From positions 1 through 60,557 of the forward strand of contig JACRAL010000007.1 in NCBI GenBank assembly GCA_016213435.1: 60,557 bases of DNA, read 5' to 3'. Under the pieces are notes generated by a model. That model had not been told where the DNA came from and ran no database searches. It saw only the letters and a program-made list of their open reading frames with translations. This document shows, piece after piece, positions 4,984 through 24,110 of the stretch. The stretch is from Bacteroidota bacterium. Its GTDB lineage: Bacteria > Bacteroidota > Bacteroidia > Palsa-948. Numbering within the stretch: position 1 is the stretch's first letter; each line of letters starts with the position of its first letter. A program made the translations under genes and the position numbers.

Positions 4984-5244
4984 ATGACCTTTGGAACATT
5001 AAAATTCTATTTCCGAACGCTCGGAATTATATTTGGGAAACCTCAAGTGCCATTGCGGGCGTCCGCAAGCCTGTTTGGGAAATTCCAAGTGCCATTGCGG
5101 GCGTCCGCAAGCCTGTTTGAGAAATCCCAAGTGCCATTGCGGGCGTCCGCAAGCCTGTTTGAGAAATCTCAAGTGCCATTGCGGGTATCCGCAATCCTGT
5201 TTGGGAAATCTCAAATGCCATTATCTATAAATATTCACCATTAA
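4984..5244 (+). CDS. Tandem-repeat ORF of 14-residue units (doubtful gene)
   Basis: An 86-residue frame made of four full copies and a partial copy of a 14-residue unit (F-G/E-K-x-Q-V-P-L-R-A-S-A-S-L) encoded by a 42-bp repeat. Because 42 is divisible by three, several other frames over the same stretch are also open, so openness is not evidence of coding. In favour of this frame: it has an ATG and ends just before the next gene. A second 42-bp repeat array lies at 16604-16840. Confidence 0.35.
   Translation: MTFGTLKFYFRTLGIIFGKPQVPLRASASLFGKFQVPLRASASLFEKSQVPLRASASLFEKSQVPLRVSAILFGKSQMPLSINIHH
5032..5223 (+). repeat. 42-bp tandem repeat, about 4.5 copies
   Basis: Units start at 5032, 5074, 5116, 5158 and 5200 (partial), each beginning TTTGGGAAA or TTTGAGAAA and containing AAGTGCCATTGCGGGCGTCC. 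The copies differ by only a few bases. There are no unique spacers, so this is not a CRISPR array. Confidence 0.95.
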
Positions 5245-16562: not shown

Positions 16563-16603
16563 TTGCCGTTATTTTAGCGTTTCAGACGCTCGGATAGTAC
16601 ATT

Positions 16604-16840
16604 CTTGACGTAGATGTAAAGGTTCCCGCTCTCAACTCTCAAATCCTTGACATGGATTTAAATATCCATATTCTCAATTCAGTGATTTCCGATGTGAACT
16701 CTCAGATTCTTGCACGCAGCTTAAAGGTTCTTGACATGGATTCCAAGGTACATGCCCTCAACTCTCCAATCCACGATGTGGATTTAAAGATTCATTCTCC
16801 CAACTCACATATCCTTTCAAAGAATTCAAACACCCTTTGC
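16604..16840 (+). repeat. Degenerate 42-bp tandem repeat, about 5.5 copies
   Basis: Units start near 16604, 16646, 16688, 16730, 16772 and 16814 (partial). Each carries a TTGACATGGATTTAAA- or CGATGTGGATTTAAAG-like segment and a later CTCAACTCTCCAAT-like segment. Translated from the TAG-delimited frame they give a 14-residue unit (L-D-M-D-x-K-V-x-x-L-N-S-x-I). There is no start codon before the second unit, so it is either non-coding or a gene fragment (ATG at 16652). It has no unique spacers and is not a CRISPR array. Confidence 0.8.
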
Positions 16841-16890
16841 CAGTTTGAAATTAGCGCGGCTGTTCAAGGAAGTGTGGCAGGGATAGATAC

Positions 16891-17067: not shown

Positions 17068-20000
17068 ATGGCTAAAATACTTGGGCTTGATTTGGGAACC
17101 AATTCTATTGGATGGGCGGTGATTGAAGATGGAAAGAAAATAATAGGAACAGGAGTTAGGATTTTTCCGGAAGGAGTAGATAACTTGGGGGAAGGAGAAA
17201 ATGAACAATCCAAAAATTCCACCCGAAGAGTTTTCAGACAAGTGCGAAGACAAATTTTCAGAAGAAAACTCAGGAAGAAAATATTGCTCAAAGAATTATC
17301 AAAACATAATATGTGCCCTCTAAATGAAGAACAAATCACAAGATGGTATAAAGCAGGTGACTTCCCCGACACTATTGAAATGCGTGAATGGCTAAAAGAA
17401 AATCCGTATTTGCTCAGAGAAAAAGTGCTAAATGAAAAAATTTCCTTAAATCAATTGGGAAGGATTTTCTACCAGATCGCACAACACAGAGGATTTCTCA
17501 GTAACAGCAGAAGTGCTGGAGCAAATGATAAAGAAGAAGGCGCAATTTATGAAGGAGATGAAAAAACAGGAAAGACAGGAATAACAAAAACACAAGAACT
17601 TATAGGTGAAAAAACCTTAGGAAGCTACCTCTCCACTATTTATCCAAAAGAAAGTACAGAAGAAAAGAAACAAAGTTATGTAGATGGTTTGCCAAGAATA
17701 AGGAATCGCTATACCACTCGTCAGATGTACATTAATGAATTTGAAAAAATATGGGAGTCTCAAAAAAAATATCATAAAGAGCTTACCGATGAATTGAAAG
17801 AATTATTTGGAGGAAGAAAAAAAGATGGATACAAGAAGGACGGTATTCTTTTTTTTCAGCGCCCTTTAAGAACACAAAAATTCCTTGTTGGCAAATGCAC
17901 GTTTGAGCCAAAGAAAACAAAATGCCCTGCCAGTACAATCTCTTATGAACTATATCGGTCTCATCAATTTATTAACACAATTGAATGTGATGGAAAAAAA
18001 CTAAATGCAGAACAAGGAAAAACAGTTCTTGAAATATTGCTTACTAAAGACGAGCCTAAATTTAAAGAAATAAGAAAGAAGTTAAAGAAACCAGACGGGA
18101 ACTTCAACTACGAAGATGATGACAAATGCCAAGGAACATGGACAATCAGCAGCTTATCAAATAAAAAATACTTTGGCTCAAAATGGTTTGAGTTTTCCGA
18201 AAAAGAACAGGAAGATATTTGGCATGTGCTGTACTTTTTTGACGATAGAGATAAACTTAAAGAACATGCAATGAAGAAATGGGGTTTTGATGAAGAAAAA
18301 GCAATTAAGATCAGCAAATTTAATCTTGAAGATGGCTATGCGAGCTTGAGTAAAAAAGCAATTTTAAATATTCTGCCTTTCCTGCAAATAGGATTTACTT
18401 ATGATATGGCAACAACGCTTGGCGGAATAAAAAATGCTTTTGGCAATGATTGGGAAAAACTTAGCGATAAAAACAAAGATTTTATCATTACCAATGTCCC
18501 CGAAATTGTAAGGTCAAAAATCAAAGGAGGATACATTGAGGAATTAAAAAACTTTTTAAGAAATGAATTTGGGTTAAAAGATGAACAATTAGAAAAACTT
18601 TATCACCACAGTTCGTCTATAAGCAAATCAGATGTTATTGCAAAATTGCCTGTAAGCAAAGAGGCGGACAAAGAAATTGCGAACCTTAGAAACCCGATTG
18701 TATCAACAGCATTATTTGAACTAAGAAAGCTCGCAAATGCAATTATTAATGAGTATGGAAAACTTGATGAAATAAAAATTGAATTATCAAGGGATTTAAA
18801 AATATCGAAAGACAAAAGGCAAAAAATACGGCAAGCTCAAAGAGATAATGAAAGAACAAATAAGAATGCCATTGAAAGATTAAGAGAACAAGAGCAAGTG
18901 ATAACCCAGGACAACATTTTGAAATATAAATTATGGGAAGAATGCCAGCACACTTGCCCATATACCGGAAAAGAAATAAGTATTAAAAAATTATTTTCAG
19001 GTGAGGTTCAGATTGAACACATCCTGCCATGGAGCCGAACACTTGACGACAGTTATCTGAATAAAACTTTGTGTTTTGCCGAAACAAATAATGAAAAAGG
19101 CGAACAAACCCCTTACGAATATTTTAATAAACAAGGAGCAGAAAAATGGGAAGACGCAAAGGCACGTGCCTTAAACCTCTTTTACACAACCAAGGACTTT
19201 CCTCTCCGCTATGAAAAGTTTAAAAGATTCGCAGCAGAAAAATTCAATGACGACTTTATTACTCGACAATTAAATGACACACGATATATAAGCAGAGAAG
19301 CAAAATCCTATTTAGAAAAAATATGTGATAATGTAAAAGTTGCTCCCGGGCAAATGACAGCAAACCTGCGTGATAAATGGGGGCTGAATTCAATCCTGAA
19401 TTTGGAAGGCGATACCAAAACGAGAGATGACCACCGCCATCATGCAGTTGATGCCTTGGTTATGGCCTGTTTCAAGGCAAATCATTTAAATGAAATTTCA
19501 AAATGGAATCGTTATAACAGGAAATATGATTTAAAAGATTTTCCAATGCCTTGGGAAGGATTCAGAACTGAAGCTGAAAAAGCAGTTAATTCTATACTTG
19601 TTTCTTACAAGCAAACAAATCGTGTTCTAACGTCACGTAAATATAAAGTCAAAAAGAAGGTTGAAAAAGATGGAAATCATTTTACAAAAAAACATATAAA
19701 TAAAGGCATTGCAGCAAGAGGTCAACTTCATGATGCACATGTTTATGGTTTAAGAAAAAATAAACAAGGAGAAGAATCATTCCATATTCGAGAACCATTA
19801 CAAAGTTTGACTGAAGCAAAGATTCCAAAAATCGTAGATGAGAAGATACGAACTCTTGTTTATAAAAGACTACTGGAAAGAGGTTTGGAAATTGATCCAA
19901 AGAACGGAAAACCTATTGCTAAAACAAAAGAACAAAAAGACAAATTCAAACAAGCATTTGACAAACCAATTCATTTACCAAACAAAAATGGCGATCCTGT

Positions 20001-20532
20001 TCCTATAAGAAAAGTGAGGATAAAACAAAATATTGGAAATTCGGAACAATTGAAAGAAACCAATCAATACGTAAATCCAAAAAACAATTACGCTGTGCTT
20101 GTGTACAAGAAAGAAGACGATACTCTTAATGAAGAAATAATCACACGATGGATTGCTACTGAAAGAAAAATGCAGGGAGATAATATCATTAAACTCCCTG
20201 CTGATGGAAAAGAAATCATTGCCACACTTAGAATAAACGACATGTTTTTAATTAATCTTTCAGATGAATCTTTTGAAGACAATAAAAACAATTTTTCATT
20301 TCTAAGTAATCATCTTTTTAGGGTTCAATCAATATCATCTATGTTTTATGAGTTCAGACATCACTTGTCAGCAAAAGCAGATGAAAAAATACCACCTTAT
20401 TACCATAGAATTCAAAGTTTTGGAGATGGGAAAACAGGATGGCTTACTTTTAATCCGATAAAAGTTTTTATTTCACCCTCAGGAAAAATTTACAAACATC
20501 CTGTCAATGCTAAAACGCACTCTATTCTTTAG
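17068..20532 (+). CDS. cas9: CRISPR-associated endonuclease Cas9, type II-C
   Basis: A 1154-residue RNA-guided DNA endonuclease. RuvC-I is ILGLDLGTNSIGWAVIE with catalytic D8, then the arginine-rich bridge helix (RRVFRQVRRQIFRRKLRKK), RuvC-II ELSRDL with E572, HNH with H651 in VQIEHILPWSR, and RuvC-III HHAVDAL with H792 and D795. All catalytic residues are present, so it looks active. The final codons lie inside a 55-bp segment that also forms the start of cas1 about 1 kb downstream, implying the two genes once overlapped. Guide partners are the tracrRNA at 16891 and the lone repeat at 24064. Confidence 0.97.
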   Translation: MAKILGLDLGTNSIGWAVIEDGKKIIGTGVRIFPEGVDNLGEGENEQSKNSTRRVFRQVRRQIFRRKLRKKILLKELSKHNMCPLNEEQITRWYKAGDFPDTIEMREWLKENPYLLREKVLNEKISLNQLGRIFYQIAQHRGFLSNSRSAGANDKEEGAIYEGDEKTGKTGITKTQELIGEKTLGSYLSTIYPKESTEEKKQSYVDGLPRIRNRYTTRQMYINEFEKIWESQKKYHKELTDELKELFGGRKKDGYKKDGILFFQRPLRTQKFLVGKCTFEPKKTKCPASTISYELYRSHQFINTIECDGKKLNAEQGKTVLEILLTKDEPKFKEIRKKLKKPDGNFNYEDDDKCQGTWTISSLSNKKYFGSKWFEFSEKEQEDIWHVLYFFDDRDKLKEHAMKKWGFDEEKAIKISKFNLEDGYASLSKKAILNILPFLQIGFTYDMATTLGGIKNAFGNDWEKLSDKNKDFIITNVPEIVRSKIKGGYIEELKNFLRNEFGLKDEQLEKLYHHSSSISKSDVIAKLPVSKEADKEIANLRNPIVSTALFELRKLANAIINEYGKLDEIKIELSRDLKISKDKRQKIRQAQRDNERTNKNAIERLREQEQVITQDNILKYKLWEECQHTCPYTGKEISIKKLFSGEVQIEHILPWSRTLDDSYLNKTLCFAETNNEKGEQTPYEYFNKQGAEKWEDAKARALNLFYTTKDFPLRYEKFKRFAAEKFNDDFITRQLNDTRYISREAKSYLEKICDNVKVAPGQMTANLRDKWGLNSILNLEGDTKTRDDHRHHAVDALVMACFKANHLNEISKWNRYNRKYDLKDFPMPWEGFRTEAEKAVNSILVSYKQTNRVLTSRKYKVKKKVEKDGNHFTKKHINKGIAARGQLHDAHVYGLRKNKQGEESFHIREPLQSLTEAKIPKIVDEKIRTLVYKRLLERGLEIDPKNGKPIAKTKEQKDKFKQAFDKPIHLPNKNGDPVPIRKVRIKQNIGNSEQLKETNQYVNPKNNYAVLVYKKEDDTLNEEIITRWIATERKMQGDNIIKLPADGKEIIATLRINDMFLINLSDESFEDNKNNFSFLSNHLFRVQSISSMFYEFRHHLSAKADEKIPPYYHRIQSFGDGKTGWLTFNPIKVFISPSGKIYKHPVNAKTHSIL

Positions 20533-20561
20533 CAATCCCTATCACCTGAGCGTGAGGATGG
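20507..20561 (+). repeat. Direct duplicate of the cas1 start at the cas9 3' end
   Basis: This 55-bp segment matches 21519-21573 at 52 positions by my count. It begins with the cas1 ATG and encodes the first 19 Cas1 residues in the +1 frame relative to cas9, then runs into a stop after GLY-LEU. The cas9 stop lies inside it at 20530-20532. Confidence 0.9.
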
Positions 20562-20584
20562 GGCTTTGAAAATCATCGAAGTTA

Positions 20585-20617
20585 AAACCTTCAAGGTTTT
20601 GAAAACCTTGAAGGTTT
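20585..20617. repeat. REP-type palindrome, AACCTTCAAGG family
   Basis: AAACCTTCAAGGTTT is followed by its inverted form, separated by a few bases. A half copy lies at 21489-21502 and another full copy inside the RAYT gene at 23041-23074, so the family brackets the fic-cas1-RAYT region. Confidence 0.85.
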
Positions 20618-20686
20618 CATAAAAGAGAAGAGAAGATATTTTACATTTGTCCCGAAGGGACTCCCTCGGAATAAAAACAGAAAAAC

Positions 20687-21478
20687 ATGAACTGGAAAGA
20701 ATTAAATACCTGCACTGAAAAATTTGAATCGCTCGGACTAAGCAAGATAATGGATTTTGATCAGTTCAACCGCATTGCCATTGTGCACCATAGCAGCGCC
20801 ATTGAAGGCAGCACACTTACGCTGGAAGAAACAACATTGCTCATCACCGAAGGCATTACCGTTAAAGGCAAATCCATGAACGAGCACCTGATGGTGAAGG
20901 ATCATTACGAAGCATTGCTGTTTACTCTTGACAAGGCAAAAAATAAAACTGACATTACTCCTGAATTTCTAAAACAAATAAATGCATTAGTGAACAAAAA
21001 TACGGGGCAGAAGCGCAACACTCCGCTCGGAATGTGTGATGATACCAAAGGCGACTTCCGGCTTGGCAATGTTACGGCAGGAACTACTTATTTTGTAAAC
21101 TATGATAAAGTTCAGCCGATGGCAAATGAACTTTGCGAAAAACTGCAGAGCAAAATAAATCCAGTAAAAACTAATGAAGAAATATATCAGCTATCGTTTG
21201 ACGCGCATTATTACTTAGTGAACATTCATCCCTGGTTTGACGGTAATGGGCGCACATCTCGACTGCTGATGAATTTTATTCAGGCAGTGCATCAAAAACC
21301 TCTTTCCATTGTTTTCCTTGAAGACAAACCTGCTTACATAAAAGCATTAAATGATTCAAGAGAAAAAAATGATATTGATATTTTCAGGAAATTTATGACA
21401 GAGCAGCACGTGAAATATATGAAACGGGAAATTGAAAAATACGAGCAACGGAACAAAGGAATACATTTTCTTTTTTAA
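20687..21478 (+). CDS. Fic family protein (AMP transferase type)
   Basis: A 263-residue Fic-domain enzyme, normally transferring AMP from ATP to hydroxyl side chains of proteins. The catalytic loop is HPWFDGNGRTSR with H181. An N-terminal inhibitory helix S36-x-x-x-E40-G41 (SSAIEG) marks a self-inhibited class II Fic. The C-terminus is short (no wHTH extension). It sits between cas9 and cas1, where a second gene is not normally found, and is flanked by a 55-bp direct duplication and REP half-sites, so it was probably inserted. Its target is unknown; any CRISPR role is speculative. Confidence 0.92.
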   Translation: MNWKELNTCTEKFESLGLSKIMDFDQFNRIAIVHHSSAIEGSTLTLEETTLLITEGITVKGKSMNEHLMVKDHYEALLFTLDKAKNKTDITPEFLKQINALVNKNTGQKRNTPLGMCDDTKGDFRLGNVTAGTTYFVNYDKVQPMANELCEKLQSKINPVKTNEEIYQLSFDAHYYLVNIHPWFDGNGRTSRLLMNFIQAVHQKPLSIVFLEDKPAYIKALNDSREKNDIDIFRKFMTEQHVKYMKREIEKYEQRNKGIHFLF

Positions 21479-21518
21479 CTCAACTATAAACCTTCAAGGT
21501 TTCATGAATTAAAAACTC

Positions 21519-22451
21519 ATGCTAAAACGCACTCTATTCTTTAGCAACCCCTATCATTTGAGCGTGAGGATGGGTCAATTGGAAATTACCGATAAAAAAA
21601 CCGGTGAAATAAAAACCGCGCCCATTGAGGATCTGGGATTTGTGGTATTTGATAATCAGGAAATCACCTTTACGCAAAGCGTAATGACGGAACTTGCTGC
21701 CAACAACACGGCAGTGATTATCTGCAATAATAAACACCTGCCTGCAAGCATGATGTTCCATCTTGACACCAATCACATACAGAATGAGTTATTCCGCGCA
21801 CAAGTGAGCGCAAGCGAACCGCTTAAAAAACAATTGTGGCAGCAAACAGTAAAACAAAAAATACGGAATCAGGCGGCAATGCTTGATCTTGCAGATGATC
21901 TCAACTCTGTCAGGGTTTCAAACCCTGACAGAGTTACTATTAAAGCAGGTGATGCACTTCGCAGAATTGCTACTGAAGTAAAAAGTGGCGACATAACCAA
22001 TCAGGAAGCTCAGGCAAGCCGCAGGTATTGGAGCAAATTATTTGGAGAAACTTTTACGCGGGAGCGTGAGGGCATGCCTCCTAACCCATCGCTGAATTAC
22101 GGATATGCTATTCTGCGCGCTGCCGTTGCCCGCGCCTTGTGCGGAAGCGGGCTGCTGCCCACGCTCGGCATTTTTCATCACAACAAATACAACCATTACT
22201 GCCTTGCCGATGACATTATGGAGCCCTACCGCCCCTATGTAGATAAAATGGTATGGGAACAAAAAGAAAAATATCCCGACTATCACAATCTCGACAAAGA
22301 AAGAAAAGCAGAACTGCTTTCTGTTCTTTCATGCGATGTTATAATAAATGGCGAAAAAAGCCCTTTGCTCGTTGCTGTTTCACAAACAACCGCATCGCTT
22401 GTAAAGTGTTTTTCGGGAGAAGAAAAGCAAGTGGCTTATCCTATATTATAA
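21519..22451 (+). CDS. cas1: CRISPR-associated endonuclease Cas1 (type II)
   Basis: A 310-residue spacer-integration nuclease. It starts MLKRTLFFSNPYHLSVRMG, the usual type II start. The metal ligands lie in GDITNQEAQASRRYW (Glu), FHHNKYNHYCLADD (His) and DIMEPYRPYVD (Asp). An in-frame REP palindrome at 21904-21935 adds about 11 residues (around 129-139, NSVRVSNPDRV) between two helices. Because the catalytic residues are intact and the frame is kept, the protein could still work. It acts with Cas2, which is now separated from it by a transposase gene. Confidence 0.95.
   Translation: MLKRTLFFSNPYHLSVRMGQLEITDKKTGEIKTAPIEDLGFVVFDNQEITFTQSVMTELAANNTAVIICNNKHLPASMMFHLDTNHIQNELFRAQVSASEPLKKQLWQQTVKQKIRNQAAMLDLADDLNSVRVSNPDRVTIKAGDALRRIATEVKSGDITNQEAQASRRYWSKLFGETFTREREGMPPNPSLNYGYAILRAAVARALCGSGLLPTLGIFHHNKYNHYCLADDIMEPYRPYVDKMVWEQKEKYPDYHNLDKERKAELLSVLSCDVIINGEKSPLLVAVSQTTASLVKCFSGEEKQVAYPIL
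21904..21935. repeat. REP palindrome inside cas1, CTGTCAGGG family
   Basis: A 32-bp perfect palindrome built from ACTCTGTCAGGGTTT and its complement. It is the same family as 22460-22493, 22719-22752 and 23177-23212, all around the RAYT gene. Confidence 0.92.
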
Positions 22452-22459
22452 AATAAAAT

Positions 22460-22493
22460 AACCCTGTCAGTGTTTCAACCCCCTGACAGGGTT
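22460..22493. repeat. REP palindrome upstream of the RAYT gene
   Basis: AACCCTGTCAGTG and CCCCTGACAGGGTT form a hairpin in the 56-bp gap between cas1 and the transposase gene. With the copy at 23177 it brackets the transposase gene, the typical REPtron arrangement. Confidence 0.9.
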
Positions 22494-22507
22494 GACAAAG
22501 ATCAACC

Positions 22508-23173
22508 ATGCAAGACAAAAAAGCCATACTAACTCCTGGCACAACATATCACATCTACAATCGCGCAAACGGAAATGAAAAAATCTTTGCAAATGAAGGA
22601 AATTATTTTTTCTTTTTAGAAAAACATAAGCATTACATCTCCTCTATTGCCGACACCTTCTGCTATTGCTTAATGCCTAATCATTTTCATTTTTTAATAA
22701 GAATAAAAAGCATTTCACAACTCTGTCAGGGTTATAAACCCCTGACAGAGTTAAATGGAAAATCCTTTCAGGGTTCCACCCCATTGACTGAGTTAAATGA
22801 AGCTGAATTATCTAATTTCCTCAGCAGGCAATTCTCTCACCTTCTAAATGGATACACTCAAGCCTTTAACAAACAACAAAGCAGGAAAGGCAGCTTATTT
22901 ATGCGCCCCTTCAAACGAAAAAGAATTTCTGATGAAAATTATTTAAGAAAACTTGTGCATTATATTCATTACAATCCTGTAAAAGCTGGAATATGCAGCA
23001 AACCGGAAGAATGGAAGCACTCATCTTACAATGCAATCCTAAACCTTGAAGGTTTCCAAAACCTTCAAGGTTTTATATTAAAAGAGGAAGTAATCGAATG
23101 GTTTGGCGATAAAGAAAATTTTATTTACTGCCATCGGTTTCCGCAAAAAGAAACAGGGATAGATAAATTTTAA
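22508..23173 (+). CDS. REP-associated tyrosine transposase (RAYT, Y1/HUH)
   Basis: A 221-residue single-strand transposase of the IS200-like Y1 superfamily. The HUH motif is MPNHFHFLIRI near residue 60 and the nucleophile tyrosine lies in LVHYIHYNPVKAGI. It is flanked by CTGTCAGGG-type palindromes and contains palindrome-derived codons itself (22719-22752, QLCQGYKPLTEL, and 23041-23074, NLEGFQNLQGF). RAYTs are thought to spread such palindromes. Its position between cas1 and cas2 is unusual and suggests insertion into the cas operon. Confidence 0.93.
   Translation: MQDKKAILTPGTTYHIYNRANGNEKIFANEGNYFFFLEKHKHYISSIADTFCYCLMPNHFHFLIRIKSISQLCQGYKPLTELNGKSFQGSTPLTELNEAELSNFLSRQFSHLLNGYTQAFNKQQSRKGSLFMRPFKRKRISDENYLRKLVHYIHYNPVKAGICSKPEEWKHSSYNAILNLEGFQNLQGFILKEEVIEWFGDKENFIYCHRFPQKETGIDKF
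22719..22752. repeat. REP palindrome inside the RAYT gene
   Basis: AACTCTGTCAGGG and CCCCTGACAGAGTT form a hairpin within the coding region; a decayed second copy follows at about 22764-22796. Both preserve the frame. Confidence 0.88.
23041..23074. repeat. REP palindrome (AACCTTGAAGG family) inside the RAYT gene
   Basis: AAACCTTGAAGGTTT plus its inverted copy encode NLEGFQNLQGF. It is the same family as 20585-20617. Confidence 0.85.
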
Positions 23174-23176
23174 CAT

Positions 23177-23212
23177 AACCCCCTGTCAGGGTTCTAAACC
23201 GATGACAGGGTT
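23177..23212. repeat. REP palindrome between RAYT and cas2
   Basis: AACCCCCTGTCAGGG and ATGACAGGGTT arms flank the 3' side of the transposase gene. Confidence 0.88.
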
Positions 23213-23221
23213 GTCTCTGCA

Positions 23222-23569
23222 ATGAACTCTCGTAACCATACACGGCTTAACGCATACCGGATCATGTGGCTATTTGTATTCTTCGACCTTCCAACTGAAA
23301 CAGCAGGAGAACGGAAAGCAGCAGCTCGTTTCCGAAAGGATATTATGAAAGACGGCTTCACAATGATGCAGTTCAGCGTATATATGCGCCACTGCCCCAG
23401 CGGAGAAAATGCCGATGTGCACCTGAAGCGCATTAATAAGGTGCTGCCTGACAAGGGGCAAGTGAGTATATTAAGAATTACCGATAAGCAATACGGTGAG
23501 ATAATTAACTACTGGAGCGCAAAAAATCACCCGCTCGATCCTGCTCCGCAACAACTGGAACTATTCTAA
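23222..23569 (+). CDS. cas2: CRISPR-associated protein Cas2
   Basis: A 115-residue Cas2, which forms the spacer-integration complex with Cas1. The ferredoxin-like first strand RIMWLFVFFDLP carries the conserved aspartate. It continues with MMQFSVYMRHCPSGENADVH and SILRITDKQYGEI, standard for type II Cas2. The predicted start is the ATG at 23222, right after a REP palindrome. It ends 8 bp before the convergent gene. Confidence 0.94.
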   Translation: MNSRNHTRLNAYRIMWLFVFFDLPTETAGERKAAARFRKDIMKDGFTMMQFSVYMRHCPSGENADVHLKRINKVLPDKGQVSILRITDKQYGEIINYWSAKNHPLDPAPQQLELF

Positions 23570-23910: not shown

Positions 23911-24063
23911 ATAAAGTTGATTTTTCAAAATTAAAAAAAACAACAGGACATCAAAACAAAACCATAAAATAAAAAAACCGGAAAGAAGAGTTATCAGTTC
24001 TTCAATCCGGTTCATTTTTAATGACATTAAATCCTTGTAAGTTGCTGATCATTAGAAGATACA

Positions 24064-24110
24064 ATCATCAACTAAATGTCATCTATCCCTCTTTGAAATC
24101 AAACCACAAC
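24064..24110 (-). CRISPR. Single CRISPR repeat (remnant or minimal array)
   Basis: On the minus strand it reads GTTGTGGTTTGATTTCAAAG, then AGGGATAGATGACATTTAGT and TGATGAT. The start GTTGTGG and the TTCAAAGAGGGATA block pair with the tracrRNA anti-repeat at 16891-16992, which fixes identity and strand. No second copy lies within the distance expected for a spacer on either side, so the true repeat end is not defined (36-47 bp possible). Confidence 0.75.

Follow-up and report, generated by a model that had tools for sequence, protein, structure and literature searches.

Analysis of a 60,557-nucleotide stretch of Bacteroidota DNA (hereafter, the window) and of related loci indicates that a module composed of a RAYT transposase and REPIN palindromes has probably colonised the cas operons of Bacteroidota recurrently, settling by the adaptation genes and being retained in the direction of transcription. 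In this picture a REP system invades an immune operon and even inserts in frame within cas1, and the cas9-cas1 boundary stands out as a place where cargo settles repeatedly. The repeated, one-directional link between RAYTs and adaptation genes also provides a testable setting for the role of RAYTs, in culturable species. Searches of open-access literature returned no description of RAYTs within cas operons.

A profile scan of the window revealed the type II-C gene set, composed of a type II cas9 (17068-20532; TIGR01865, E 3.5e-188), cas1 (21519-22451; TIGR03639, 302 bits) and cas2 (23222-23569; PF09827 and TIGR01573), and neither csn2 nor cas4 was detected among the six locus proteins scanned. 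A Fic-domain gene (20687-21478; PF02661, E 1.3e-14) is inserted between cas9 and cas1, and a gene encoding a 221-amino acid RAYT (22508-23173; NF047646, 67.4 bits) is located between cas1 and cas2, with all five genes on the plus strand. The sequence-only reading had described a RAYT bracketed by palindromes between cas1 and cas2, and profile matches and palindrome coordinates agree that this arrangement is real. An Rfam search of the window returned no match.

Neither of the relevant profiles matches the RAYT above its curated cut-off (67.4 versus 80 bits for NF047646, 18.9 versus 23 bits for PF01797), probably because of the in-frame inserts of the gene. The residues defining the HUH (H59, H61) and Tyr (Y152) motifs are kept and map to invariant columns in alignment A3. 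The AlphaFold model of the protein (pLDDT 83) presents a Y1 fold, and its best PDB match is E. coli TnpAREP (4er8; E 2.2e-7 by fold), which is also matched by sequence (E 2.6e-7). The main insert forms a low-confidence loop in the model (residues 78-89), near a palindrome at 22719-22752. Since fold, motifs and flanking palindromes all fit, the window gene is a divergent RAYT, that is, an HUH/Tyr transposase, despite its sub-threshold scores.

Two palindromes of the CTGTCAGGG type flank the RAYT gene, on the left at 22460-22493 and, in imperfect form, on the right at 23179-23212. The pair reported previously at 22460 and 23177 is thus present, but the literal CTGTCAGGG occurs at 21907, 22723 and 23183, whereas the left arm of the copy at 22460 reads CTGTCAGTG. 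The designation of the element as a complete REPtron was correct, and the element proved more invasive than noted, with additional copies inside cas1, inside the RAYT gene and around the Fic gene. Within the RAYT, an in-frame palindrome lies between the HUH and Tyr motifs (22719-22752), followed by a degenerate copy (22761-22794; repeat family D10) and by a second in-frame palindrome of the CCTTGAAGG type (23041-23073). The in-frame palindrome in cas1 (21903-21935) sits in a 15-residue insert that is not present in 12 aligned relatives; an independent in-frame palindrome was observed at a different position in the cas1 of another locus (L027). The Fic gene has a CCTTCAAGG-type palindrome near it in the cas9-cas1 gap (20583-20619) and a half palindrome of the same type on its other side (21489-21502).

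The 33-nt palindromes are composed of two inverted 15-nt hairpins (arms of 16, loop of 1), and as doublets of inverted REPs they show the design that defines REPINs and BIMEs. In the 3.7-Mb genome that contains the window, searches allowing up to 3 mismatches located the 33-nt forms in 1 and 2 places, all in the cas locus and none elsewhere, with no hits for a reversed-pattern control, so that their presence exceeds chance; the patterns used would miss 34-nt variants. In the 20507-21518 region of the window, the Fic gene, bracketed by the CCTTCAAGG palindromes, lies inside a 56-nt duplication of the start of cas1. The partial copy at the end of cas9 (20507-20562, plus strand; 95% to 21519-21574, repeat family D20, tblastn) is a probable scar of the Fic insertion, before which the ancestral cas9 and cas1 genes probably overlapped. 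A Fic gene 80% identical to that of the window occupies the cas9-cas1 junction of genome G145, which has no RAYT there.

The module resembles known RAYT/TnpAREP REPtrons (4er8) in its HUH and Tyr motifs, in its fold, in the bracketing of the gene by palindromes and in the dispersal of palindromes in some relatives. It differs from them in lacking a GTAG or CGTC foot, in its 33-nt doublets with AAC/AAA ends and in its cas-operon location. Its subclass features are mixed. As characterised in the available text of Quentin et al. 2018 (PMC6006769), subclass 2.4 (group 4) shares with it in-frame REPs between the HuH and Y motifs, the NHFH signature and an occurrence in Bacteroidetes, but the REPs of that subclass carry GT[AG]G, which those of the window do not, and its YIxNNP motif contrasts with the YIHxNP of the window RAYT. 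Subclass 2.6 (group 5), in the same text, also occurs in Bacteroidetes and shares the atypical palindromes, the YIH-NP motif and the SS after the core, yet in-gene palindromes are described there as unique to subclass 2.4. In-gene REPs are hence no novelty of the window, since that text already describes them; the word CRISPR does not appear in its main text. Palindromes that lie in frame and code for additional peptide, like the one in the window cas1, also figure in the account of REPs inside ORFs by Di Nocera et al. 2013 (PMC3733652), the available text of which names no cas gene. Unexpected genes tied to cas adaptation modules have been reported in the FLSHclust survey (PMC10910872), whose main text, unlike the present case, includes no HUH transposase (HUH, 0 occurrences). 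The in-frame insertions of the window have a further parallel: Rickettsia palindromic elements likewise form in-frame palindromes that encode extra peptide.

Downstream of cas2, the window contains a leader and a single CRISPR repeat on the plus strand (24015-24110, repeat at 24075-24110), 88% identical to the leader and first repeat of genome G057, in which the same leader precedes an array with a 36-nt repeat and 30-nt spacers. No spacer array was found in the window or elsewhere in its genome at up to 3 mismatches, only this one repeat. The 42-nt direct repeats at 5011-5222 and 16602-16849 of the window are not CRISPR-like. In G057, which harbours the closest cas relative (cas1 71%), cas1 and cas2 are contiguous and their junction is empty. 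The six same-genus genomes contain no cas1, and five of them encode RAYTs of the same clade; together with the empty G057 junction, this indicates that the cas locus of the window was probably acquired and that the RAYT insertion is local to its lineage. The window RAYT has a single distant relative in its own genome (33% identity). A plasmid or phage origin was discarded, with six weak plasmid matches below 60% identity and no phage matches. The empty G057 junction, the reduction of the window array to one repeat and the confinement of the palindromes found to the locus agree with a single accidental insertion with no wider meaning. Such an accident may still fit the window copy, but it is refuted as a general account, and highly improbable overall, by surveys in which 18 of 84 genomes carry the association, always co-oriented.

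These figures derive from a sample of 395 genomes of the class, analysed with a RAYT profile (A2) and a II-C cas1 profile (A1). RAYTs of the A2 clade were detected in 74 of the 395 genomes and II-C-type cas1 genes in 84. Within about 7 kb of cas1 there were 19 RAYTs, from 18 genomes, and all 19 were co-oriented with it, against a chance expectation of roughly 0.12 estimated from 33 RAYT loci in cas1-bearing genomes, with Poisson and orientation counts entered by hand. Because the A2 profile was built on cas-adjacent members, it inflates the proportion of RAYTs found near cas genes, an effect that bears less on the position test. Most RAYTs are located elsewhere, and 66 of the 84 cas1 genomes have none near cas1. 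Among the matches listed, none of the approximately 150 strongest generic RAYT places fell within 10 kb of a II-C cas1, and in the class sample no A2 RAYT adjoined a cas1 gene other than II-C, both as compared by eye.

The sequence-only reading had posed a choice between a simple insertion and a useful association, and had named empty cas1-cas2 junctions in close relatives, together with RAYTs at random sites, as the evidence against the latter. Empty junctions such as that of G057 are indeed common, but the RAYTs are not randomly placed, with 19 of them lying by cas1, co-oriented, in 18 of 84 genomes; the two halves of this evidence point in different directions. Recurrence and uniform orientation suggest that RAYTs and CRISPR loci may be linked, rather than having met by chance. 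The extreme enrichment and strict co-orientation would also suit a role for the RAYT as an accessory to adaptation, a single-strand hairpin nuclease/ligase that would serve Cas1-Cas2, where Cas4 and Csn2 are missing, by trimming prespacers or handling intermediates at the leader-repeat. We consider this role possible but doubtful, given that about four fifths of II-C loci manage without a RAYT.

The cas9-cas1 gap could be evaluated in 69 of the 84 cas1 genomes, and 26 gaps exceeded 350 nt. RAYTs of this clade occupy fourteen of these, a RAYT fragment of the clade occupies one (G118) and a RAYT of another type occupies one (G204). In the latter (locus L227, 4416-6257), the different RAYT shares the cas9-cas1 junction with an ATPase gene. 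Other cargo at this boundary includes genes for Fic proteins, ATPases, HIRAN, nucleotidyltransferase-like and RhuM-like proteins. Four of the 19 junction RAYTs in the class sample are decayed (G052, G107, G142 and the G118 fragment), and that of G256 is cut by a contig end. With a looser threshold, one opposite-strand RAYT-like ORF was found just past cas2 in G194.

Gene maps were drawn for the window and 17 further loci. The order cas9-RAYT-cas1-cas2 was found in 13 mapped loci, with cas2 past the contig end in two, while a RAYT between cas1 and cas2, or right after cas1 at a contig end, was found in four (the window, L091, L104 and the second copy of L090). L090 has an additional RAYT before cas1, and in L106 the RAYT lies upstream of cas9. 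The cas1-cas2 junction, a minority placement among mapped loci, was rejected as the specific site, and the cas9-cas1 boundary is the usual one.

A second sample, made up of the 80 closest RAYT relatives among GTDB genomes, overlaps the class sample (for example, L150 and L178 correspond by contig to G013 and G046). A II-C cas1 accompanies 22 of the 80, all co-oriented, and one more RAYT lies beside cas9 (L209). Isolates with a II-C cas1 and a RAYT include Belliella kenyensis, Mesonia aquimarina and Salegentibacter, and the occurrence of the same order in isolates (L152, L156, L160, L165, L176) rejects chimeric metagenome-assembled genomes as its source. Two of the 80 relatives reside in type I cas loci, arranged as cas3-companion-RAYT-cas4-gene-cas1-cas2 in Gracilimonas mengyeensis and as cas4-RAYT-gene-cas1 in Algoriphagus sp. 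AGSA1. The placement of RAYTs at the boundary between interference and adaptation genes in both II-C and these two type I loci is in line with an accessory role in adaptation, but both type I loci do have cas4. The RAYTs of these loci (L212, 7407-10426; L221, 7363-11154; I-B-type cas1, cas4) are palindrome-bearing, and L221 also contains Csp-type effector genes.

Among 89 distinct other RAYT loci, recurring neighbours otherwise reflected mainly shared placements in related genomes. Where both neighbours of such a locus were on one strand, the RAYT was co-oriented in 34 of 44 cases, a rate at which the 38 of 38 co-oriented RAYTs of cas loci would have a probability of 6e-5. In L090 (8345-8806), L213 (7455-7901) and L221 (7363-7809), the RAYT is immediately preceded by a companion gene of some 150 residues that is bounded by palindromes. 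Its copies are 44-64% identical and occur in unrelated contexts, one of the three not being a cas locus; those of L090 and L221 returned no NCBIfam match.

Among the cas loci inspected, all those with palindromes of this type had a RAYT. A comparison by eye found none in cas1 loci without a RAYT, and the same list showed palindromes in five RAYT-bearing loci, of this type in four. The palindrome sequence varies between loci, with a constant 33-nt doublet design, and the matching palindrome can be dispersed through a genome (27 sites in G006, 33 in G135). Genes bounded by palindromes include the window Fic gene, a HIRAN gene (L099) and the companion gene. An internal palindrome was present in 15 of 15 full-length CRISPR RAYTs of the class sample versus 9 of 40 others, a contrast that is confounded by phylogeny, weaker in the second sample (about 15 of 21 by a strict test, hand count) and assessed with a Fisher test on hand counts of 16/16 and 11/40.

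REP hairpins of enterobacteria exert effects on mRNA, and most gene junctions of L091, L090 and the window have palindromes. The palindromes might then be what matters, the RAYT being only their source, with junction REPIN hairpins tuning mRNA stability or decoupling the expression of cas9, cas1 and cas2. We regard this as improbable, because many RAYT loci have the internal palindrome alone and 8 of 15 full-length RAYTs of the class sample have no palindrome within 250 nt on either side.

The history of the RAYTs combines association with exchange. In a 59-row tree the CRISPR label changes 12 times, versus a shuffled mean of 16.2, and starred branches force at least 5 changes; in a 124-row quick tree it changes 16 times versus 30.6, with starred branches forcing only 2, the two type I loci being labelled "other" in these trees. 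Given the label changes in both trees, a single RAYT clade specific to CRISPR loci was rejected as a full explanation. A CRISPR-only clade does exist (L095, L096, L100, L102 and L103; support 98/88), and all its members except L102 lack flanking palindromes. This clade would favour RAYTs as adaptation accessories, as would the modest correlation between RAYT and cas1 distances (Mantel r 0.32, p 0.0002, n=34). Against such a role, the nearest relative by RAYT is also the nearest by cas1 in only 4 of 34 cases. The RAYT blocks of L096 and L100 occupy the same junction and are about 79-80% identical in nucleotide sequence, with cas1 only 56% identical in amino acids, and the presence of so similar a RAYT in otherwise different cas operons indicates that RAYTs move between loci. 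This movement could be due to recombination rather than to transposition by the RAYT itself.

Both motifs are kept in 32 of 35 full-length CRISPR RAYTs (L106 and L155 lack the Tyr and L165 the HUH motif), and dN/dS is about 0.14-0.19 in three RAYT pairs with dS below 1.2. The copies in CRISPR loci are mostly intact and under purifying selection. Many RAYT-bearing loci contain arrays of 20-47 repeats, which indicates that the RAYT does not preclude acquisition; array size with and without a RAYT showed no clear difference, in a comparison limited by flank length. These filled arrays, and the second RAYT type in the G204 junction, agree with a contribution to adaptation, but decayed RAYTs are found beside intact cas1 genes and RAYT-less loci also have long arrays. 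A benefit of the RAYT to spacer acquisition is possible, and the data do not require it.

The recurrent colonisation of cas operons by the module can be outlined in mechanistic terms. E. coli TnpAREP cleaves and rejoins REP DNA, as cited in the available text of PMC6006769, and the RAYT would likewise cut and rejoin single-stranded palindromes. This activity may place new palindromes in gene junctions and in loops that tolerate them, and the RAYT would be read from the cas operon transcript. Its residence at the boundary between interference and adaptation genes would be tolerated or rewarded, and its persistence might be explained because that boundary tolerates passengers and because RAYTs move between cas loci. 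A more ambitious proposal, which we advance as speculative and rather unlikely, is that RAYTs are recurrently recruited adaptation factors, HUH single-strand nuclease/ligases giving Cas1-Cas2 hairpin-processed or correctly ended prespacers or acting at leader-repeat hairpins, and that the same enzyme shuffles REPIN-bounded cassettes (Fic, HIRAN and the 150-residue companion) into cas operons. If true, recruitment as an adaptation factor would provide a long-sought host function for at least one RAYT lineage.

Two further arrangements of repeated palindromes or hairpins were observed. Palindromes occur in series, at intervals of about 2 kb and about 0.9 kb and possibly within repeated genes, in contigs C11 and C43 of G006 and C52 of G013. 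In L201 (7121-8867), between cas9 and cas1, a tandem of about five 225-bp units, each comprising the 5' part of the RAYT and a hairpin, precedes the full RAYT.
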